Shown here piece after piece: positions 49,771-64,000 of a DNA stretch of 64,000 nucleotides. Position 1 is the stretch's first letter; every line of letters begins with the position of its first letter. The notes under the pieces were generated by a model. The model searched no databases. It saw nothing but the letters and a program-made list of their open reading frames with translations, and was not told where the DNA came from. The DNA comes from Aromatoleum diolicum. Lineage in GTDB: Bacteria > Pseudomonadota > Gammaproteobacteria > Burkholderiales > Rhodocyclaceae. Both the position numbers and the translations under genes were made by a program. The stretch is from assembly GCF_012910955.1 (NCBI RefSeq), contig NZ_WTVQ01000003.1, positions 1 to 64,000 on the forward strand, given 5' to 3'.

Positions 49771-49836
49771 CGGCGTTCCTCGGTCGTCCGGACGCGCGGG
49801 TCGCAGCCGGCGGGCGATCGTTGTTGGTGGTGTTGA

Positions 49837-49848
49837 CATCATACAACT
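49837..49848. promoter_or_regulatory. operator copy 1 for the first GntR regulator
   Basis: CATCATACAACT, an exact copy of the right arm of the palindrome at 49869-49897, lies 66 bp upstream of the gntR start. It contains the GTATGATG half-site (reverse strand) typical of FadR-subfamily operators. Confidence 0.6.
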
Positions 49849-49868
49849 CGCTCCGTACGCTTGCATCA

Positions 49869-49897
49869 AGTTGTCAGATGTAGAACATCATACAACT
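49869..49897. promoter_or_regulatory. operator copy 2 (29-bp imperfect palindrome)
   Basis: AGTTGTCAGATG and CATCATACAACT (10 of 12 bases complementary) flank a 5-base spacer, 61 bp upstream of the SDR start. Position, symmetry and the repeat at 49837 make it the likely main operator for the divergent regulator. Confidence 0.7.
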
Positions 49898-49958
49898 TGG
49901 CGATTCAGAAGTGCAGGTGCGGCCGTTCCGCACCGCGGACAATCACGAGGAGACCAGG

Positions 49959-50717
49959 ATGCGGATGAAGGATTTGGTGGCGGTCGTCACCGGCGGTGGT
50001 TCGGGATTCGGCGAAGGGATCTGCCATGCGTATGCGGCGGAGGGCGCGAAGATCGTCGTCGCCGACATCAACGACGAGAATGGCGAGCGCGTTGCTGCGG
50101 CGCTGCGCGACGGCGGTGCCGAGGCGGTGTATTGCCGCGCCGACGTGAGCCGCTCGGGCGACATGAAGCTGCTCGTCGAGACCGCGGTGGGTCGTTTCGG
50201 GCGCCTCGACGTGATGGTGAACAACGCCGGTACGAGCCACGCAAACCAGCCGATGCTGAACATCAGCGAGGAGCAGTTCGACCGCATCTACGACGTCAAC
50301 GTGAAGAGCATCTACCACTCGGCGATGCACTGCGTGCCGGTGTTCCGCAAGCAGGGCGGCGGGGTGTTCGTTAACGTCGCCTCGACCGCCGGCATCCGTC
50401 CGCGCCCCGGTCTGTGCTGGTACAGCGGCAGCAAGGGCGCGGTGATTGCGCTGACCAAGGCGATGGCGATCGAGCTGGCGCCGGACCGGATTCGCGTCAA
50501 TGGCATCAACCCGGTGATGGGCGAGACCGCGCTGCTGACGACTTTCATGGGCAAGGAGGACACGCCGGAGAACCGCGAGAAGTTCATCGCGACGATCCCG
50601 CTCGGGCGCATGAGCCGGCCTTCAGACATCGCCAATGCGGCGCTCTTCCTCGCGGACCCGGCCTCGGAGCTGGTGACCGGGATCTGCGTCGAGGTCGATG
50701 GCGGACGCTGCATCTGA
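49959..50717 (+). CDS. SDR-family oxidoreductase
   Basis: A 252-residue classical SDR. Seen: VVTGGGSGFGEGI (cofactor), Asp in VVADIND suggesting NAD preference, NNAGTSHANQP, catalytic WYSGSKGA, and the C-terminal TGICVEVDGGRCI. Start ATG 49959 has aggag 7 bases upstream. First gene of an operon with an aldehyde dehydrogenase and a TtuC-like dehydrogenase; it probably oxidises a hydroxyl of an organic or sugar acid. Substrate not known. Confidence 0.88.
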   Translation: MRMKDLVAVVTGGGSGFGEGICHAYAAEGAKIVVADINDENGERVAAALRDGGAEAVYCRADVSRSGDMKLLVETAVGRFGRLDVMVNNAGTSHANQPMLNISEEQFDRIYDVNVKSIYHSAMHCVPVFRKQGGGVFVNVASTAGIRPRPGLCWYSGSKGAVIALTKAMAIELAPDRIRVNGINPVMGETALLTTFMGKEDTPENREKFIATIPLGRMSRPSDIANAALFLADPASELVTGICVEVDGGRCI

Positions 50718-50730
50718 GGGAGGCGCGGAC

Positions 50731-52185
50731 ATGCTGGAGCTGAAGGAATACCGACTTTTCCGCAATCAATGCTACGTCGATGGCGTGTGGTGCGACGCCG
50801 ATTCGGGGCGGCGTGACGCGGTGTTCAACCCCGCGACCGGCGAGGAACTCGGCACGGTGCCGACGATGGGCGTCGCCGAGACGCGCCGCGCGATCGACGC
50901 CGCGGCGCGCGCACTGCCAGCCTGGCGCGCGAAACCCGCGCACGAGCGTAGCGCGGTGCTGCGGCGCTGGTTCGAACTGGTGATGCGCCATCAGGAGGAT
51001 CTCGCGCGCATCATGACCGCAGAGCAGGGCAAGCCGCTCAGCGAGGCGCGCGGCGAGATCGCCTACGCGGCGTCCTTCCTCGAATGGTTCGCCGAGGAAG
51101 GCAAGCGCGTGTATGGCGACACCATCCCGTCGAAGAGCGCCGACACGCGCCTCGTCGTCATCAAGGATCCGATCGGCGTGTGCGCGGCGATCACGCCGTG
51201 GAATTTCCCATCGGCGATGATCACCAAGAAGGCCGGCCCGGCGCTCGCGGCCGGCTGCACGATGGTGCTGAAACCCGCGCCGGACACGCCGTTCTCGGCG
51301 CTGGCGATGGTCGAGCTGGCGGTCGAGGCGGGGGTGCCGCCGGGTGTGTTGTCGGTCGTCACCGGCCCGGCTGCGGAGATCGGCGGCGAGCTGACGTCCA
51401 ACCCGACGGTGAGGAAGCTCACCTTCACCGGCTCGACCGCGACCGGGCGGCTGCTGATGCGCCAGTGCGCCGACACGGTGAAGAAGCTGTCGCTGGAACT
51501 CGGCGGCAATGCGCCCTTCATCGTGTTCGACGACGCCGATCTCGACGCCGCGGTCACCGGGGCGATGCAGTCCAAGTTCCGCAACAATGGCCAGACCTGT
51601 GTGTGCGCGAACCGCATCCTCGTGCAGGACGGTGTCTATGACGCCTTCGCCGACAAATTCACGCGCGCGGTGATGGAGTTGCGGGTCGGCGACGGCTTTG
51701 CACCCGGCGTGCAGCAGGGGCCGCTGATCAACGACGCGGCGGTGAGGAAGGTCGAGCGGCATCTCGCCGATGCGGCGGCGAAGGGCGCGCGCGTGCTCAC
51801 GGGCGGCAAGCGCCATGTGCTGGGCGGCACCTTCTTCGAGCCCACGGTACTCGCCGACGCGACGCCCGACATGTCGATCGCGAAGGAAGAGATCTTCGGC
51901 CCGGTTGCGCCGCTGTACCGCTTCCGCAGCGAGGACGAGGCGATCAGTCTCGCCAACGACACCGAGTACGGGCTGGCCGCGTACTTCTACGGCCGCGACA
52001 TCGGCCGCATCTGGCGCGTTGCCGAGGCGCTCGAATACGGCCTCGTCGGCATCAACGCCGGCCTGATGGCGAACGAGGTCGCGCCCTTCGGCGGCGTCAA
52101 GCAGTCGGGCATCGGCCGCGAAGGCTCGAAATACGGGATCGAGGAATTCCTCGAAGTGAAATATTTGTGCATGGGCGGACTGTGA
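50731..52185 (+). CDS. NAD(P)-dependent aldehyde dehydrogenase (succinate-semialdehyde dehydrogenase-like)
   Basis: A 484-residue ALDH of the GabD-like group. Seen: TPWNFPSAMITKKAGPALAAGC, FTGSTATGRLL, the catalytic Glu in LSLELGGNAPF and the catalytic Cys in NNGQTCVCANR. Start at ATG 50731 with gggagg upstream, 13 bp after the SDR. In this operon it may oxidise a C4 semialdehyde or a related product. Confidence 0.9.
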   Translation: MLELKEYRLFRNQCYVDGVWCDADSGRRDAVFNPATGEELGTVPTMGVAETRRAIDAAARALPAWRAKPAHERSAVLRRWFELVMRHQEDLARIMTAEQGKPLSEARGEIAYAASFLEWFAEEGKRVYGDTIPSKSADTRLVVIKDPIGVCAAITPWNFPSAMITKKAGPALAAGCTMVLKPAPDTPFSALAMVELAVEAGVPPGVLSVVTGPAAEIGGELTSNPTVRKLTFTGSTATGRLLMRQCADTVKKLSLELGGNAPFIVFDDADLDAAVTGAMQSKFRNNGQTCVCANRILVQDGVYDAFADKFTRAVMELRVGDGFAPGVQQGPLINDAAVRKVERHLADAAAKGARVLTGGKRHVLGGTFFEPTVLADATPDMSIAKEEIFGPVAPLYRFRSEDEAISLANDTEYGLAAYFYGRDIGRIWRVAEALEYGLVGINAGLMANEVAPFGGVKQSGIGREGSKYGIEEFLEVKYLCMGGL

Positions 52186-52214
52186 CGCCCGCCGAGCAGG
52201 AGAGTGAATAGACC

Positions 52215-53288
52215 ATGACCATCCATCGTATTGCAGTGATCGCCGGCGACGGCATCGGCAAGGAAGTGATGCCCGAAGGGCTGCGCGTCGTCGAGGCGGC
52301 CGCACGCAAGTTCGGCATCGCGCTCGCGTTCGACCACTTCGACTTCGCCAACTGCGACTACTACGCGAAGCACGGCAAGATGATGCCGGACGACTGGAAG
52401 GAGCGCATCGGCGGCCACGACGCGATCTTCTTCGGCGCGGTCGGCTGGCCGGCGACGGTGCCCGACCACGTGTCGGTGTGGGGCTCGCTGATCACGATGC
52501 GGCGCGAGTTCGACCAGTATGTGAACCTGCGCCCGGCGCGGCTGATGCCCGGTATTCCGTCGCCGCTCGCGAACCGCAAGCCGGGCGACATCGACTTCTA
52601 CGTCGTGCGCGAGAACACCGAAGGCGAGTATTCGACCATCGGCGGGCGCATGTTCCCCGGCACCGAGCGCGAGTTCGCGGTGCAGGAAACGATCATGACG
52701 CGCACCGGCGTCGACCGCGTCGCGAAGTTCGCCTTCGAGCTTGCGGCGAGCCGGCCGAAGAAGCACCTGACCTCCGCGACCAAGTCGAACGGCATCTCGA
52801 TCACGATGCCCTACTGGGACGAGCGCGTCGCCGAGATGGCGAAGAGCTTCCCCGATGTTCGTGTCGACAAGTACCACATCGACATCCTCACCGCGCACTT
52901 CGTGCAGCACCCGGACTGGTTCGACGTGGTTGTCGCGAGCAACCTGTTCGGCGACATTCTTTCGGACCTCGGCCCGGCCTGCACTGGCACGATCGGCATC
53001 GCGCCGTCGGCGAACCTGAATCCGGAACGCAAGTTTCCTAGCCTCTTCGAGCCGGTGCATGGTTCGGCGCCGGACATCGCCGGCAAAGGCATCGCCAACC
53101 CGATCGGCCAGATCTGGTCGGGCGCGCTGATGCTCGAATTTCTCGGCCACAAGGACGCGCACGACGCCATCCTCGGCGCAATCGAGCGCACGCTGGAGGC
53201 GGGGCCCGCGCACGCGCCGCTGACTGCCGACATGGGCGGCAAGGGCAATACCGTGGCGCTCGGCAAGGCGATCGCCGAGGCGGTGTAA
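52215..53288 (+). CDS. tartrate/D-malate dehydrogenase (TtuC-like)
   Basis: A 357-residue beta-decarboxylating dehydrogenase of the isocitrate/isopropylmalate family. Seen: VIAGDGIGKEVMPEGL, the substrate-binding Arg segment TMRREFDQYVNLRP, VVRENTEGEYS, the catalytic Lys in VDKYHIDILTAHFV, and the NAD-binding EPVHGSAPDIAGKGIANP. The size and RENTEGEYS fit tartrate dehydrogenase/D-malate dehydrogenase. NAD-dependent, needs Mn2+ and K+ in characterised members. Third gene of the operon. Confidence 0.87.
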   Translation: MTIHRIAVIAGDGIGKEVMPEGLRVVEAAARKFGIALAFDHFDFANCDYYAKHGKMMPDDWKERIGGHDAIFFGAVGWPATVPDHVSVWGSLITMRREFDQYVNLRPARLMPGIPSPLANRKPGDIDFYVVRENTEGEYSTIGGRMFPGTEREFAVQETIMTRTGVDRVAKFAFELAASRPKKHLTSATKSNGISITMPYWDERVAEMAKSFPDVRVDKYHIDILTAHFVQHPDWFDVVVASNLFGDILSDLGPACTGTIGIAPSANLNPERKFPSLFEPVHGSAPDIAGKGIANPIGQIWSGALMLEFLGHKDAHDAILGAIERTLEAGPAHAPLTADMGGKGNTVALGKAIAEAV

Positions 53289-57951: not shown

Positions 57952-58782
57952 TCAGGTAATCCGCGCGATGCTCGCGGCGATCTCTTCGGGTTCGAACACG
58001 CGCTTCCAGTCGGGCTGCATCAGCTGCGCCTTGCCGTAGGTGATCGCCTTGTTGCAGGCGTCCGAGAAGGCGCCGGGCTGTTCTTCGAAGATCACGGCGC
58101 CGAGGATGTTCATGTGGCCGAGCAGGAAGTCGCGCGCGCATTCCTTGGGGATGCCGCCGCGGGTGATGACTTCGTCCATCGCCTCGCGCATGACGGCGAG
58201 CAGCGTGGCGCAGATGGTTTCCGACAGGCCCGGTTCGAGCAGCGCCATCTGTTCGACGGTGACGCGGTGGGCGCGGCCGACCGGGGCGTAGATGGTGCGG
58301 GCGATCTTCTCGCCGAGCTCGAAGGCTTCCGCGGGGCCCTGCATCAGCGCGCTGACGATGTGCTGCGTCGCCTTGACGCCACCGAAGTAGTCCTTCTTCG
58401 CGGCGAGATCGGTCTCGTCGTTGAAGATCGACGGATGGCAGGGATGGGTGACGAAGTAGGTGAGGTCGGGGCGCGCGGGCAGATGGCCGGCGAAGGGCGC
58501 GGCGGCGTCGAGCGCGATCACCATCGTGCCGCTTTCCATCATCGGGCTGAGGCCGGCGGCGATCTTGCCGATGAGGTTGTCGGGCACGGCGAGGATCACG
58601 ACGTCGGCGCCGGGCACGGCTTCCTCGGCGGCCACGCAGGTGACGCCGAGTTCGGTGGCGAGCCGCTGGCGGCCGGCTTCGCCGACTTCGACGTGGCGCA
58701 CCCTGAAGTCCGAGTTCTTGAGGTTGCTCGACAGGCGGAAACCCATCTTTCCGCCGGCGCCGATCAGCGCAATTGTGGTCAT
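57952..58782 (-). CDS. apnO: D-apionate oxidoisomerase-like dehydrogenase (PGDH C-terminal domain)
   Basis: A 276-residue NAD(P)-dependent enzyme. Seen: the Rossmann motif LIGAGGKMG (6-14), AVPDNLIGKIA, and a C-terminal helical domain of the phosphogluconate-dehydrogenase-C type with PVGRAHRVTVEQMALLEPGLSET. Members of this family include D-apionate oxidoisomerase (ApnO), which makes 3-oxo-isoapionate. The start at ATG 58782 has a GGAG upstream; three more in-frame ATGs lie within 18 bp. Divergent from the second GntR gene, whose operator overlaps its promoter. Confidence 0.72.
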   Translation of the reverse strand: MTTIALIGAGGKMGFRLSSNLKNSDFRVRHVEVGEAGRQRLATELGVTCVAAEEAVPGADVVILAVPDNLIGKIAAGLSPMMESGTMVIALDAAAPFAGHLPARPDLTYFVTHPCHPSIFNDETDLAAKKDYFGGVKATQHIVSALMQGPAEAFELGEKIARTIYAPVGRAHRVTVEQMALLEPGLSETICATLLAVMREAMDEVITRGGIPKECARDFLLGHMNILGAVIFEEQPGAFSDACNKAITYGKAQLMQPDWKRVFEPEEIAASIARIT

Positions 58783-59110
58783 TTCATCCATCTCCATCAT
58801 CGGTGTCGGGTGGCAGCCGTCCGGTGACGGGAAGGCTGTCATGTTGTTCTCTGAGAAACTGGTATAATGACATCCTAACGAGACCAGCAAGTCAAGGCCT
58901 GAGACGAAATTTGTGCGCTCGGGAGGCGCTTCGGGGGGCGTGCGAGGTGCGCAGGCGGGAAAACTGGCAGGGGGCGCCGAGTTTCGGGACAATCGCGACG
59001 GCGGCGCGGGCGCGGGCGTGGGGGTGGGCGTGGAGTCGGCGATGCGCGCGGCAAGGAAACGGCAGACTGCGAGGGCGCAGGTGCGTGACAACGATGGGGT
59101 GGGCTCGACG
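58783..59110. other. 328-bp intergenic region between divergent apnO-like and gntR genes
   Basis: It holds a possible minus-strand promoter for the apnO-like gene (TTGACT at 58890-58895, TGTCAT at 58867-58872) and an operator (58858-58879). On the plus strand there is a TATAAT at 58863-58868 without a clear -35. From 58913 the gntR frame stays open, but the encoded Gly/Arg-rich stretch does not resemble a regulator, so it is taken as leader. Confidence 0.5.
58858..58879. promoter_or_regulatory. operator for the second GntR regulator, copy 1
   Basis: Starts ACTGGTATAATGAC and, after a 3-base insert, ends CTAAC. It shares these two blocks with the site upstream of the RuBisCO-like gene and overlaps the predicted -10 of the apnO-like gene, consistent with repression. 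Confidence 0.62.
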
Positions 59111-59860
59111 ATGGGCGGTACGGGAAAAATAGTGAAGCGCAAGCTCTCGAACGAGGTCTTCGACCGGCTCTACGAGCTGATCCGCAGCGGCGATTACCCG
59201 CCGGGCGAATCGCTGCCGTCCGAACGCGAGCTGATGGAAAGCCTCGGCGTCGGACGGCCGGCGATCCGTGAGGCGATGCAGTCGCTGGAGCGCCAGGGGC
59301 TGATTTCGATCCAGCACGGACAGCGACCGAAGGTGCTGCAGCCGACCGCGTCGGGGCTGATCTCGCAGCTCGACCTGACGGCGCGCCACATGCTGATGCA
59401 GTCCCCCGAGTCGCTGGAGCACCTGAAGGAGGCGCGCACCTTCTTCGAGGTCGGCATGGCGCAGCGCGCGGCAGAGCTGGCCGATGCGGCGGATGTCGCG
59501 CGGCTCGCGGCGCTGCTGCAACGACAGCGCAGCGCCCTGAACGAGGATTGCGAGGCCTTCATCGCGGCCGATATGGCTTTTCACCGCGGCATCGCGGCGG
59601 TCACGCGCAATCCGATCTTCACCGCGACGAGCGAGGCGATGCTGGGCTGGCTGGCGCGCTTCCATTCGAAGGTGCTGCACTGGGAAGGCAACGAGCAGAC
59701 GACCTTGACGGAGCACGAGGGGATCCTGCGCGCGATCGAGGCGCATGACCCGGCCGCCGCCGCGCAGCGCATGGCGGATCACCTGCGGCGCGCCCGCGCG
59801 CTGTACCAGTCCGCGGCGAAAGAAGCCGGCGCGCGTGCGGGGGAGTCTCTGCTGACCTGA
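59111..59860 (+). CDS. GntR/FadR-family regulator (NanR-like)
   Basis: A 249-residue regulator. Winged helix (about 10-75) with YPPGESLPSERELMESLGVGRPAIREAMQSLERQG, then the FCD domain with FIAADMAFHRGIAAVTRNP and LTEHEGILRAIEAHD carrying the metal-binding histidines. Resembles NanR more than FadR in the ISIQHGQRP wing. Start is uncertain: ATG 59111 is the first one close to the conserved part. Predicted to repress the apnO-like gene and the kinase/RuBisCO-like operon. Confidence 0.85.
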   Translation: MGGTGKIVKRKLSNEVFDRLYELIRSGDYPPGESLPSERELMESLGVGRPAIREAMQSLERQGLISIQHGQRPKVLQPTASGLISQLDLTARHMLMQSPESLEHLKEARTFFEVGMAQRAAELADAADVARLAALLQRQRSALNEDCEAFIAADMAFHRGIAAVTRNPIFTATSEAMLGWLARFHSKVLHWEGNEQTTLTEHEGILRAIEAHDPAAAAQRMADHLRRARALYQSAAKEAGARAGESLLT

Positions 59861-59867
59861 GCGCCGT

Positions 59868-61220
59868 TCAGCGGCGTCCGTCGCGGATGTTGCCGAAGTA
59901 GGCTTCGCTGCCGATCTGGCCGCCTTTGAGCGCGATCTGCAGGCCGTCGAAGCGGGCTTCCTCGCTGTGCGCGGTGCACAGCGGCGAGCCCGGCGTTTCG
60001 GGCAGCGGCAGGCGCGTCGTCAGCGCGAATACGCCCAACTGCTGCAAGGCGTGGCTGGACGTGTCGCCGCCCGCAATCACGACGCGTTTCAGCGATTCGC
60101 GTTCGATCAGGCGTTTGAGGAGCCCGCCGAGCTGCTGACCGATGCGATGGCGGAAACTTTCATCGCAATCGGCCGCGTCAACGAGGTTCGAGTCCGGTCC
60201 GAGCGCGGTGTACAGCACGACGCTCTGCCCGCGCTTGAGCGCCGCGACGCCGTCGGCGAGGGCCGCGTCGAAGGTCTCGGGGCCATGGATCGTGCTCGCG
60301 AGGCGGCGCGCGTCGAGTGCGATCGCGGCGAAACCGTTGTGCTCGGCCCAGCGGATCTGGCGCGCGGTGACTTCGGAGCAACTGCCGGAGACGACCGCGA
60401 TGCGCTCGACGGCACCGGGCGATGCGAACTCGGCGGAGCCGGGGATCATGCGCTCGGCGATCCATTGCTGGATCAGCGCGTATTCGACGCCGGACGAGCC
60501 GACGACGAAGCTGCCGCCGGGGCGGCGATGGCGCCACAGCTGGCGGCCGACGGCTTTCTGGATCGCGCGGTCGGGCACGTCGAAGAGCAGCACTTCATCC
60601 TTGCCGTCCATCAGGCGCGCGATCGCCGTGTCGGCATCGTCGGCGCCGAGCATCACGTAGTCGGCGAGCGCGATGCGCTTCGTCGTCTGCTTGCCGAGAT
60701 GGAGGGTGAGGTCGGCGTCGTCCATCGGCGTGACCGGATGGCGGCTCATCACCGGGTGGCGGTCGAGGCGGTGCACGACGCCATTGACGGCGGCGAAGTG
60801 GTTGCCGAACACCGTGTAGCGGCGCATCTGCGGCACGCCGACGACGACCGGGGTGACTTTCTGTGCGAAAGCGGCGGCGCCGAGGTCGAGCGCGCGGCCG
60901 ATGCTGCCGACCGTGGGCGCGCTGTCGAAGGTCGAGCACACCTTGTAATGGCACAGCGCGGCGCCGAGGCCCTTGAGCCACGCGAACGCCTCGGGCAGCT
61001 GCGCATCCATCCACGCCGGCGATTCGCTGCGGCTGGTGCCGGCGAGCCCGATCGCGCGGACGTCGGGGAAGCGCGCGCGCTGCGCGTCGTTCGGGCGCTT
61101 CACGAACAGCACGGTCGGCACGCCGTGCATCGCGAGCGATTCCATGACGTCGGTCGAGCCGGTGAGGTCGTCGCCGTAATAGGAAAGCAGCAGGTCGTCG
61201 TTCATCGCGGCGTCACTCAT
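59868..61220 (-). CDS. oiaK: DUF1537 sugar-acid kinase, 3-oxo-isoapionate kinase-like
   Basis: A 450-residue four-carbon-acid-sugar kinase family protein. Seen: N-terminal substrate domain with LSYYGDDLTGSTDVMESL, HYKVCSTFDSAPTVGSIG, and the C-terminal ATP domain with SGSCSEVTARQI and VVIAGGDTSSHAL. The family includes OtnK/DtnK (threonate, erythronate) and OiaK. Its start overlaps the stop of the RuBisCO-like gene (ATGA), and kinase plus RuBisCO-like protein points to OiaK. ATG 61205 is a second in-frame start. Confidence 0.75.
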   Translation of the reverse strand: MSDAAMNDDLLLSYYGDDLTGSTDVMESLAMHGVPTVLFVKRPNDAQRARFPDVRAIGLAGTSRSESPAWMDAQLPEAFAWLKGLGAALCHYKVCSTFDSAPTVGSIGRALDLGAAAFAQKVTPVVVGVPQMRRYTVFGNHFAAVNGVVHRLDRHPVMSRHPVTPMDDADLTLHLGKQTTKRIALADYVMLGADDADTAIARLMDGKDEVLLFDVPDRAIQKAVGRQLWRHRRPGGSFVVGSSGVEYALIQQWIAERMIPGSAEFASPGAVERIAVVSGSCSEVTARQIRWAEHNGFAAIALDARRLASTIHGPETFDAALADGVAALKRGQSVVLYTALGPDSNLVDAADCDESFRHRIGQQLGGLLKRLIERESLKRVVIAGGDTSSHALQQLGVFALTTRLPLPETPGSPLCTAHSEEARFDGLQIALKGGQIGSEAYFGNIRDGRR

Positions 61221-62488
61221 TTGCGGAAGGTGCGGATCGCCTGGGCGAGTTCGGGGTGGCGTTCGGCATGCACGTCGAGCGGCACGCCCAGCGCAGCCGC
61301 TTCCCACGCCTGGCGCAGGCTCGCGATGCCGCCGGCGACGCCGCCCGGGTGGGCGAAAATGCCGCCGCCACAGCAGTAGATGAGGTCCGTGTTGCCGAGC
61401 GCGGCGTAGGTGTCGGCGGCCTGTTCGGCGCTCTGCGCGGACGAGAACACCGGCATCACCGTGCAGCCGGGCTTGGGGGCGGCGAACATTGGCGTCTGGC
61501 ATTCGCGCGCGGAGGCGATCACCGAATCGTCGGGCTCGCTGAACTTGTTGCGCAGGCCGTTCACGTGCAGATGATCGACACCGGCGAGTCGCCATAGCTT
61601 CTGGTAGGCGATATAGCTGATGCCGATGTGTGGCGAGCGGCTGAAGAGTCCCCAGCCGGCGCGGTGGCCGTGGATCGGCACTTCGCTGTGACTGCGCAGT
61701 GCGGCGACGCCCGGCAGGCCGACGGCGTTCAGGGTCGCCATCACGCAGCTGCCGCCGGCGGCGACGACGTAGTCGTGGTGGCGGCGCATCTCGTCGATCT
61801 CGCCGGTGATGTTGAAGGCGTACATCGCCTTCTTGCCGCTGCGCTCGGCGTGCTCGTTGATGACGCGCATCACCGCGTCGACGCGTTCAGTGAGCGGATT
61901 GTGCGGGCCGTTGGCCTGCAATTCGTCGTCCTTGATGAAGTCGATGCCGGCCTCGACGAGCTCACGCACCAGCCCCGCGGTCTGCGCGGGAGAGAGACCG
62001 ACGCTGGGCTTGATGATGGTGCCGATCAGCGGGCCGCTGGCGACGCCGACCAGCTCGCGCGTGCCGCTGATGCCGAACTGCGGCCCGCGGTACGCGTCGG
62101 CGAAGGCCGGCGGCAGGGTCAGGTCGAGCAGGCGCAGGCCGGAGAACTCGCGCAGCTCGAAGAGGTTGCCGGCGACGGTCGCGAGCAGGTTCGGCAGCGA
62201 GGGGCCGAGGTTTGCGAGCGGCCACGACAGCACGACCTCGGCGCGGCGGAAACGGGCGGACCCGCGCATGTCGGCCGGCAGCGGGCGGATCGGCAGCGAG
62301 GGGTCGGCGACGTCATCGAGTTCGACGATGCTTTCGACACGCGCGCCATGCGCCGCGCGCAGCTCGTCGGTCTCGTTCGCAAGGCGCGTGAAGGTGCCCG
62401 ACGACTGCTCGCCGGCCATCACTTCGGCCGCCATCGCGACCGGGAAGGGGGTTTCGATCCAGTACTTCGCGTAGATGCGCTCGGTCAT
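61217..62488 (-). CDS. RuBisCO-like protein (form IV), 3-oxo-isoapionate-4-phosphate-processing type
   Basis: A 423-residue RuBisCO large-chain homologue. Seen: an N-terminal alpha/beta domain, then the barrel with GTIIKPSVGL, the metal/carbamate motif DFIKDDE (Lys, Asp, Glu kept), GHRAGWGLFSRSPHIG and CCGGGIFAHPGG (phosphate site). Loop 6 reads HVNGLRNKFSEPDD and differs from carboxylating RuBisCO, so CO2 fixation is unlikely. Known enzymes next to OiaK either decarboxylate 3-oxo-isoapionate 4-phosphate or split it to 3-phosphoglycerate and glycolate; I cannot tell which. Start ATG 62488, GGAG upstream. Confidence 0.8.
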   Translation of the reverse strand: MTERIYAKYWIETPFPVAMAAEVMAGEQSSGTFTRLANETDELRAAHGARVESIVELDDVADPSLPIRPLPADMRGSARFRRAEVVLSWPLANLGPSLPNLLATVAGNLFELREFSGLRLLDLTLPPAFADAYRGPQFGISGTRELVGVASGPLIGTIIKPSVGLSPAQTAGLVRELVEAGIDFIKDDELQANGPHNPLTERVDAVMRVINEHAERSGKKAMYAFNITGEIDEMRRHHDYVVAAGGSCVMATLNAVGLPGVAALRSHSEVPIHGHRAGWGLFSRSPHIGISYIAYQKLWRLAGVDHLHVNGLRNKFSEPDDSVIASARECQTPMFAAPKPGCTVMPVFSSAQSAEQAADTYAALGNTDLIYCCGGGIFAHPGGVAGGIASLRQAWEAAALGVPLDVHAERHPELAQAIRTFRK

Positions 62489-62523
62489 GAAGAGGGTCTC
62501 CGTTACCACCGGGGCGGGTTAAG

Positions 62524-62552
62524 TGGTATAGATGTTAGGTCATCATACCAGT
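62524..62552. promoter_or_regulatory. operator for the second GntR regulator, copy 2
   Basis: The minus strand reads ACTGGTATGATGACCTAAC (62534-62552). TGGTATAGATG (62524-62534) and CATCATACCA (62541-62550) form an inverted repeat. It lies 36 bp upstream of the RuBisCO-like gene and shares its core with the site at 58858. Confidence 0.68.
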
Positions 62553-62695: not shown

Positions 62696-64000
62696 TTACA
62701 GGATGAAACGCGTATTGACGAAGTTCGACTTGTTGCCGAGCACGATGCTGTCGAGGAGCTTCTTCGACGCCGGGCTCTGCTTCGCCGCGACCATCGTGCG
62801 GATCGAGAACGAGCGCAGCGCGTCATGCACCGACAGCGTCCCCTCGGCCGAATCCTTGCGCCCGGCGAAGGGGAACACGTCGGGGCTGCGCTGGCATTGC
62901 GCGTTGAGGTTCACGCGGCACACCTGGTTCACCAGCGGATCGACGAGGTTCGCGATCTGGTCCGGATTGGTGCCGAAGATCGACACCTGCTGACCGTGAT
63001 TCGAGGTGATCACGTACTCCAGCGCGGTCTCGATGTCCTCGAAGGGCGCGACCGGCACCACCGGGCCGAACTGCTCCTCGCGGTAGAGCTTCATGCCGTC
63101 CTTCACCGGGAACACCACCGCCGGGAAGAACAGCGTCTCGACCGAGGCGCCGCCGTTCTCGTTGAGCACCTTGGCACCCTTGGCGACGGCATCGCTGATG
63201 CATTCGTCCATGTAGGCGACCTTCGCCATCTCGGGTAGCGGCGTGAGCGTCACGCCCTTTTCCCACGGCATGCCGATCTTGAGTTTGCCGATCTCCTCGC
63301 AGAAACGGCGCAGGAACTGGTCGGCGATCGCCTGATGCACCAGGATCATCTTGATCGCGGTGCAGCGCTGGCCGTTGAAGGACAGCGACCCCGCGATGCA
63401 CTCCTTGACGGTGAGTTCGATGTCGGCATCCGGCAGGATGATCGCCGCGTTCTTCGCCTCCAGCCCCAGCACCGCGCGCAGGCGGTTGGTCTTCGGGTGC
63501 GCCTTCTTCAACTGGTCGGCGACCTTGCTGGTGCCGATCAGCGCCAGCACGTTCACCTTGCCCGAACTCATGATGTGCGGCACGACCACGTGGCCCTGGC
63601 CATACACGATGTTGATCACGCCCGCCGGGAAGGCACTGCGGAACGCCTCCAGCATCGGGTAATACAGCAGCACGCCGAAGCGCGGCGGCTTGAACAGCAC
63701 CACGTTGCCCATGATCAGCGCCGGGATCAGCGTGCAGAAGGTCTCGTTCATCGGGTAGTTGTACGGCCCCATGCACAACACGATCCCGAGCGGCGAGCGG
63801 CGGATCTGCGCGATCGTGCCGTCGACGATCTGGAAGCGCGAGTTCGCGTTGTCGAGGTTCTTCAACTCGGCGATGGTCGCCTTGATGTAGTCGATCGTGC
63901 GGTCGAACTCCTTCTCGGAGTCCGCGAGGCTCTTGCCGATCTCCCACATGATCAGGTTCACGATCTCGTGCCGGCGCGCGACGATCTGGTTGGTGAAGTT
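62696..64000 (-). CDS. GapN-like aldehyde dehydrogenase, 5' end outside the window
   Basis: At least 434 residues of an ALDH; the frame runs unbroken to the window edge (visible start NFTNQIVARRHEI), so the N-terminus is missing. Seen: GPYNYPMNETFCTLIPAL, GTSKVADQL, and catalytic Cys in FNGQRCTAIKMILV, the motif of non-phosphorylating glyceraldehyde-3-phosphate dehydrogenases. The usual ELGGK catalytic-Glu motif reads GLEAKN, a clear deviation. It is on the same strand and upstream of the RuBisCO-like operon, separated by a terminator. Confidence 0.82.
   Translation of the reverse strand, partial: NFTNQIVARRHEIVNLIMWEIGKSLADSEKEFDRTIDYIKATIAELKNLDNANSRFQIVDGTIAQIRRSPLGIVLCMGPYNYPMNETFCTLIPALIMGNVVLFKPPRFGVLLYYPMLEAFRSAFPAGVINIVYGQGHVVVPHIMSSGKVNVLALIGTSKVADQLKKAHPKTNRLRAVLGLEAKNAAIILPDADIELTVKECIAGSLSFNGQRCTAIKMILVHQAIADQFLRRFCEEIGKLKIGMPWEKGVTLTPLPEMAKVAYMDECISDAVAKGAKVLNENGGASVETLFFPAVVFPVKDGMKLYREEQFGPVVPVAPFEDIETALEYVITSNHGQQVSIFGTNPDQIANLVDPLVNQVCRVNLNAQCQRSPDVFPFAGRKDSAEGTLSVHDALRSFSIRTMVAAKQSPASKKLLDSIVLGNKSNFVNTRFIL

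Follow-up and report, generated by a model that had tools for sequence, protein, structure and literature searches.

A probable D-apionate catabolic locus of Aromatoleum diolicum built on a RuBisCO-like protein of predicted OiaT type

What does Aromatoleum diolicum break down with a RuBisCO-like protein that is encoded beside a DUF1537 kinase, a dehydrogenase and a GntR regulator? The genes lie near the right end of a 64,000-nucleotide stretch (the window), which is the first 64 kb of the 206,062-base contig C80 (NZ_WTVQ01000003.1) of this 5.15-Mb genome, and an earlier note had proposed that they break down D-apionate, a branched sugar acid of plants, or apiose. The analysis described here indicates that they probably form a D-apionate catabolic locus and regulon of the OiaT type, in a form entered by the acid. 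The locus (the query below) comprises the following features.

57952-58782, minus strand: predicted ApnO-like D-apionate oxidoisomerase, a PGDH_C family dehydrogenase of 276 amino acids (Pfam PGDH_C, 234 bits)
58859-58871, plus strand: predicted operator CTGGTATAATGAC, between the divergent dehydrogenase and regulator genes; exact match, kept before the dehydrogenase gene in relatives
about 59111-59860, plus strand: GntR/FCD regulator of the NanR subfamily (NCBIfam PRK03837, 303 bits, cut-off 260)
59868-61220, minus strand: OiaK-like DUF1537 kinase of 450 amino acids, start MSDAAMNDD (Pfam SBD_N/NBD_C, 174/104 bits)
61217-62509, minus strand: RuBisCO-like protein, probable OiaT-type 3-oxo-isoapionate-4-phosphate transcarboxylase/hydrolase (Pfam RuBisCO_large, 223 bits; NCBIfam, trees and active-site comparison)
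62539-62551, minus strand: predicted operator CTGGTATGATGAC upstream of the RuBisCO-like gene; exact match, conserved in Azoarcus sp. Aa7 (L003)

All four genes are real, with extents shorter than the raw frames. The most likely start of the dehydrogenase is MTTIALIG (57952-58782), not 59142, and the regulator scored 70 bits for GntR and 79 bits for FCD in Pfam. The RuBisCO-like protein is 430 amino acids long from its GTG start, with an ATG 7 codons further in; its gene overlaps the kinase gene by 4 bases and is the sole RuBisCO_large match of the whole genome. The grouping of these three enzyme families around one GntR regulator, as claimed in the earlier note, was borne out by Pfam and NCBIfam and by a common operator, under which the ApnO-family dehydrogenase, the OiaK-family kinase and the RuBisCO-like protein all stand.

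The two exact sites of this 13-base operator were the only matches in the window at up to two mismatches, and both lie at expected promoters. Two or more matches at that tolerance arose in 17 of 100 shuffles; both real sites are exact. The CTGGTATRATGAS pattern gave no site in 30 shuffles of the window, and among 23 loci of the query clade (see below) it gave 25 sites, spread over 20 of the loci (shuffle mean, 0.03; maximum, 1). Outside the clade, 16 sites were found in 12 of 58 other loci, each with a dehydrogenase and a regulator gene nearby. An exact operator site precedes a sugar ABC gene in Paraburkholderia (L048). Since a common operator stands before the dehydrogenase gene and the RuBisCO-like gene, the three enzymes likely belong to one regulon.

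Named genomes were scanned for relatives of the RuBisCO-like protein, and the best 80 of 565 loci were kept; gene presence was scored by set limits in the flanking DNA, and some loci end early at contig ends. The kinase was a neighbor in 78 of these 80 loci, the dehydrogenase in 57 and the GntR regulator in 44, a co-occurrence which argues that the grouping is more than chance; an apionolactonase-like protein was present in 23. Closest among the named relatives is Azoarcus sp. Aa7, with 89% identity in the RuBisCO-like protein. Complete apiose clusters were among the relatives. That of Paraburkholderia sprentiae (L084) encodes a PGDH_C dehydrogenase, a NanR-type regulator, a ribose-type ABC transporter, a Gfo/Idh dehydrogenase, OiaK (822 bits, cut-off 700) and the apionolactonase ApnL (770 bits, cut-off 750), and that of Roseibium (L090) is similar. 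The regulator type, dehydrogenase, kinase and RuBisCO-like clade of the query all recur in these two clusters. Across L084, L090 and the cluster of Rhizobium phaseoli (L136), identity to the query was 67 to 70% for the dehydrogenase and 48 to 59% for the kinase; against P. sprentiae, the values were 67% (dehydrogenase), 48% (kinase) and 61% (RuBisCO-like protein).

The OiaT-type D-apiose pathway was reportedly described by Carter et al. in 2018 (Nat Chem Biol 14:696). The query resembles it in bringing together the dehydrogenase, the DUF1537 kinase and a RuBisCO-like protein that falls in the clade of complete apiose clusters and outside OiaX; it differs in that its genome lacks a match to apionolactonase or to one apiose-dehydrogenase candidate, and in that no sugar ABC transporter was seen at the locus, which sits in an acid-sugar island. 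D-apiose also supports growth of a Rhodobacteraceae strain whose genes carry the annotations lactonase, dehydrogenase, oxidoisomerase, kinase and decarboxylase (PMC11747546).

One alternative is OiaX-like decarboxylation by the RuBisCO-like protein, which would yield L-erythrulose 1-phosphate and CO2. Its best NCBIfam match is OiaX (NF042437, 454 bits), and the OiaX-type cluster of R. phaseoli has a related dehydrogenase (70% identity), kinase (59%) and GntR regulator (55%). However, the score is below the cut-off of 700, compared with 786 for OiaX of R. phaseoli, and the RuBisCO-like proteins of the two loci are 44% identical and differ in active-site residues. In a 133-row tree (quick method, LG+G4, with warnings on a few long branches), the query joined Azoarcus Aa7 (support, 100) within a 24-row clade (97) of halomonads, Stappia, Pararhizobium, Mesorhizobium, Phyllobacterium, Roseibium and one Comamonadaceae genome. 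Dropped from the row set were L142, which was too short, and, by hand, L002, L091, L092 and L109-L114, which are the window itself, copies of loci already included or loci fetched for lactonase. A careful tree of 54 of the 133 rows agreed, with the query in a 13-row clade (100/99) nested in a 38-row clade (98/93) and OiaX outside; the 13-row clade holds complete-apiose and TRAP-type members alike. Placing the query and the named OiaX proteins in one clade was rejected by the approximately unbiased test (p-AU, 1.7e-7; group chosen after the tree was seen). MtnW, the branch that the note had named as one which would count against it, was rejected on model score (139.5 bits versus a cut-off of 513.6), the trees containing no MtnW. 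As judged by these comparisons, the protein is neither OiaX nor MtnW, and OiaX-kind chemistry at this locus is improbable.

The best solved-structure match of the RuBisCO-like protein was PDB 3nwr (441 bits), which we take to be from Paraburkholderia fungorum. As a functional twin, 3nwr was rejected: a clade of the query with the 3nwr/VOC group had a p-AU of 0.017 (group chosen after the tree was seen). The unassigned sister group that includes 3nwr (L089, L123-L128, L135 and L139) adjoins VOC-family and TRAP genes along with a divergent DUF1537 kinase; an ApnO-like gene was not seen there, in flanks that for L123-L128 and L135 covered no more than about 1.5 kb.

Active-site positions were compared in spinach RuBisCO numbering; at loop 6, the alignment of two form II-like RuBisCO rows appears to be off. 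The query retains E60, T65, N123, K175, K201, D203, E204, H292, H294, R295, H327, K334, S379, G403 and G404, and departs from RuBisCO at K177, W66, H298, G380 and G381. The 15 retained positions are identical in all 24 rows of the query clade, and in 77 other related rows the sole departures were A for S379 in 4. By contrast, the four named OiaX rows have E60 changed to D, N123 to G, H327 to Q and S379 to G or C, none of which is seen in the query. The residues for RuBisCO carboxylation, hydration and cleavage are thus retained, which would be compatible with a transcarboxylase/hydrolase (OiaT), and the route to 3-phosphoglycerate and glycolate favored by the earlier note gains from this comparison and from the distance to MtnW and OiaX.

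The R. phaseoli OiaX cluster also contains TPI-like and RpiB-like genes; none was found in the 19 kb read at the query locus, and the RpiB-like isomerase of the OiaX cluster had no match in the window genome (a search without positive control). Among the 80 relatives, TPI-like genes were near none and an RpiB-like gene was near one. The absence of an erythrulose-phosphate isomerase, on which the earlier note had leaned, therefore held as an observation but is weak evidence, because two of the four OiaX loci read (L086 and L138) also lack isomerase genes nearby.

According to PMC6302742, the characterized OiaT comes from Xanthobacter autotrophicus. In a sample of 149 Xanthobacteraceae genomes (the family of Ancylobacter lacus), 22 matches were found at 50 to 64% or 35 to 37% identity to the query and none within the 43 to 45% range of OiaX. 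The 50 to 64% band takes in the query's own group as well as the VOC-associated one, so this result is indirect support alone.

Next, the form in which the substrate enters was considered. The window genome, including the DNA right of the window, has no match to the apionolactonase ApnL, whether with the P. sprentiae protein or with model NF049900. As a positive control, the lactonase queries do match in other genomes (one check left out L048 of six loci). In a survey of 28 loci from which L062 was left out, NF049900 had no match in any of 18 genomes chosen for lactonase-free loci (16 of them with the close TRAP type; the other two are Azoarcus Aa7 and L014, the latter with another TRAP and no dehydrogenase seen) and matched in all nine control genomes, which were chosen because they have a lactonase gene. 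One query, the P. sprentiae Gfo/Idh protein, gave no apiose-dehydrogenase candidate in the window genome, a search that had no positive control. Sugar ABC binding-protein queries had no match in the 19 kb of L002, the record of the query locus that runs on past the window, to which the search was confined. Four halomonad loci (L006, L007, L011 and L012) are compact units of GntR regulator, ApnO, TRAP, RuBisCO-like protein and OiaK. Together, the lactonase-free genomes, the lack of a Gfo/Idh match and the compact TRAP units suggest uptake of the acid. Thirty-six loci spanned 19 kb or more and had both the dehydrogenase and the regulator; of these, 15 had a TRAP without lactonase, 17 a lactonase without such a TRAP and 4 neither (Fisher p, 7e-7, with kin counted as independent). 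The query locus resembles the TRAP-associated, lactonase-free loci of halomonads and Stappia and is probably a D-apionate (acid-entry) locus. Of the breakdown claimed in the earlier note, the acid part was supported by the three families, the operator and the kinship to apiose clusters; the apiose part was not, given the missing lactonase and Gfo/Idh matches.

A second alternative keeps the three-step chemistry but gives it a different substrate, a branched or C4-C5 sugar acid not yet described; tartrate dehydrogenase, aldehyde dehydrogenase (ALDH) and SDR/HIBADH genes would feed the route. Genes of this kind lie left of the locus:

49911-53288, plus strand: left operon of an SDR (49911-50717), a succinate-semialdehyde-type ALDH (50698-52185) and the tartrate dehydrogenase TTC (52215-53288)

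The tartrate dehydrogenase scored 571 bits against NCBIfam TTC (cut-off 470), and relatives of it (59 to 95% identity) occur in 12 lactonase-free loci: seven of halomonads (71 to 74%), four of Stappia (59 to 62%) and that of Azoarcus Aa7 (95%). The core has TTC, ALDH and TRAP genes as neighbors in halomonads and Stappia, and in Azoarcus those for TTC and ALDH; the operon thus appears to be associated with the pathway, in an unproven role. In several loci the TRAP binding-protein gene also has a core operator site beside it: an exact one in Billgrantia/Halomonas (L009, L010 and L026), and one that deviates by a single base in Stappia (L051, L054 and L073) and Pararhizobium (L062). These arrangements, and the silence of the lactonase model in all 18 lactonase-free genomes, would fit a different acid. 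Against this, the dehydrogenase shares at least two-thirds of its residues with those of complete apiose clusters, which have the operator in common with the query, and the four compact loci combine a TRAP with the three enzymes and show no TTC gene in the flanks read. Overall, another acid seems unlikely as the substrate, and D-apionate is preferred.

A third alternative is suggested by the DNA to the right, beginning with a gene that runs out of the window:

62696-64000, continuing to 64333 outside the window, minus strand: GapN-like aldehyde dehydrogenase, a neighbor whose pathway membership is unsure (GapN is our reading; NCBIfam models were all below cut-off)

The rest of gapN is followed by LtnD (465 bits, cut-off 350), OtnK (645, 350), OtnC (335, 250), OtnI (401, 325), a second GntR gene, DenD (493, 325) and a TRAP transporter, which make up an L-threonate/D-erythronate cluster. 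The four genes could be an appendage of this cluster that acts on C4 acids. In the window genome the two sets lie side by side. Two contigs of its nearest relative, taken as Azoarcus Aa7, stop inside gapN at matching places, so the gene order is probably the same there. TRAP and DenD-like genes also lie near the core in several halomonads. Among 17 genomes of the genus, the window genome and the nearest relative alone have a close RuBisCO-like gene together with a close DenD; of the rest, one encodes a RuBisCO-like protein of 54% identity and another a DenD of 62%. Both systems share an oxidize-phosphorylate-decarboxylate logic and a DUF1537 kinase, but where the query has its RuBisCO-like protein, the neighboring cluster has a decarboxylase of the class II aldolase type, and its GntR gene is separate. 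The cluster already possesses LtnD, DenD, OtnI, OtnK and the decarboxylase OtnC, each above cut-off. An appendage role is therefore very improbable, and a separate D-apionate locus remains the favored reading.

Two copies of gapN are present in the genome, with 96.5% DNA identity over 1,679 bases; the second, on contig C84 (22115-23734), adjoins enolase- and pyruvate kinase-like genes (names read by eye). Contig ends inside gapN are what a repeat would cause. No close gapN copy was found in the compared loci of other genomes, save fragments at the two contig ends of the nearest relative. TTGTATGATG-like sites were seen at about 49830-49900 of the window (before the left SDR operon), at contig C80 position 64403 and at about 13360-13425 of L002, the right-hand ones flanking the gapN/LtnD and GntR/DenD promoters; such sites suggest FCD regulators with related operators. 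No further site of the core operator was found at up to one mismatch in the L002 DNA right of the window, where the promoters carry TATGATGAC-containing sites instead.

Several observations weigh against a D-apionate locus of the acid-entry, OiaT type. The only TRAP seen near the locus belongs to the C4-acid cluster with the other GntR gene and is without the core operator at up to one mismatch. Its binding protein shows 50 to 54% identity to the counterparts in eight loci of halomonads, Stappia and Pararhizobium and 63% to the one in L061; a binding protein from a D-erythronate plasmid cluster reaches 54%, and others 61 to 67%, of which one alone was read (L146, 61%), with no annotation of either gene set in its surroundings. 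The earlier note had suggested that the missing parts may lie right of the window: a TRAP is indeed there, within the L-threonate/D-erythronate cluster, and no apionolactonase was found there. The exclusion between TRAP and lactonase reflects two TRAP changes on the tree, too few for a test, and it is not absolute, as Ancylobacter (L065) has a lactonase plus a TRAP of another subfamily. The kinase scored 506 bits against the OiaK equivalog NF042436, below its cut-off of 700; six kinases of complete apiose clusters gave 426 to 473 (four) and 822 and 840 (two). The score of the RuBisCO-like protein against the OiaX model was likewise below cut-off, and the OiaT step is predicted from trees and an active-site comparison that contained no characterized OiaT sequence. 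All 15 active-site residues are also retained in nine of nine VOC/TRAP-associated rows, relatives of 3nwr (itself uncounted) in whose flanks, as far as read, no ApnO-like gene was seen; hence these residues argue against OiaX and do not single out OiaT. The dehydrogenase is missing from 23 of the 80 relative loci, some of which end early at contig ends, so related RuBisCO-like proteins may serve other substrates. Finally, a GlcD-like protein on contig C68 (530 bits, below the cut-off of 568), encoded beside a second GlcD-model match, gives weak support, since 11 of the 14 control genomes have GlcD-like matches too.

In the pathway that we propose, D-apionate would be imported, conceivably by a TRAP transporter. 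The ApnO-like dehydrogenase would oxidize and rearrange it to 3-oxo-isoapionate, which the DUF1537 kinase would convert to 3-oxo-isoapionate-4-phosphate. The RuBisCO-like protein would then decarboxylate this substrate to an enediolate and recarboxylate it at the neighboring carbon, and hydration and cleavage as in RuBisCO would give 3-phosphoglycerate and glycolate. The GntR protein would act on both transcription units through CTGGTATRATGAC operators.

Other RuBisCO-like loci differ in their surroundings. An Asp/Glu racemase-family gene lies near those of acidobacteria, sphingomonads and Rufibacter (L017, L020, L022, L027, L040, L046, L085 and others), and pectin- or glycan-degrading genes are present at two plasmid loci, L085 and L083 (the latter with no racemase seen). 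On Agrobacterium/Bradyrhizobium plasmids (L137 and L140), RuBisCO-like and DUF1537 genes stand with aldo/keto reductase, BKACE-family and SDR genes, no ApnO-like gene was seen and the substrate is probably different; the L137 protein carries the annotation OiaX.

The chemistry is already known, and what is new is the lactonase-free, TRAP-associated arrangement and the operator. Our literature search found no paper joining apiose and TRAP transporter and none joining apionate and RuBisCO-like; the 2018 source paper lay outside the search, and novelty in print is thus not established. As a tentative generalization, which may well prove too broad, the TRAP-associated, lactonase-free loci could constitute an acid-entry branch that works on a free sugar acid, either D-apionate or an unnamed branched relative, joined in several lineages by a co-regulated tartrate-dehydrogenase/ALDH module. 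In that branch, a RuBisCO-like protein with nearly the whole RuBisCO active site would carry out decarboxylation, recarboxylation and hydrolytic cleavage in one enzyme.

These findings would extend RuBisCO-like apiose chemistry to bacteria that seemingly live on the acid and not on the sugar. They predict a regulator with a defined operator and point, in Vreelandella, Billgrantia and Stappia, to TRAP transporters with a directly testable ligand. Four residues separate the named OiaX decarboxylases from the other RuBisCO-like proteins of such loci, and an enzyme of the query type may offer a natural system for work on RuBisCO-like chemistry apart from CO2 fixation.

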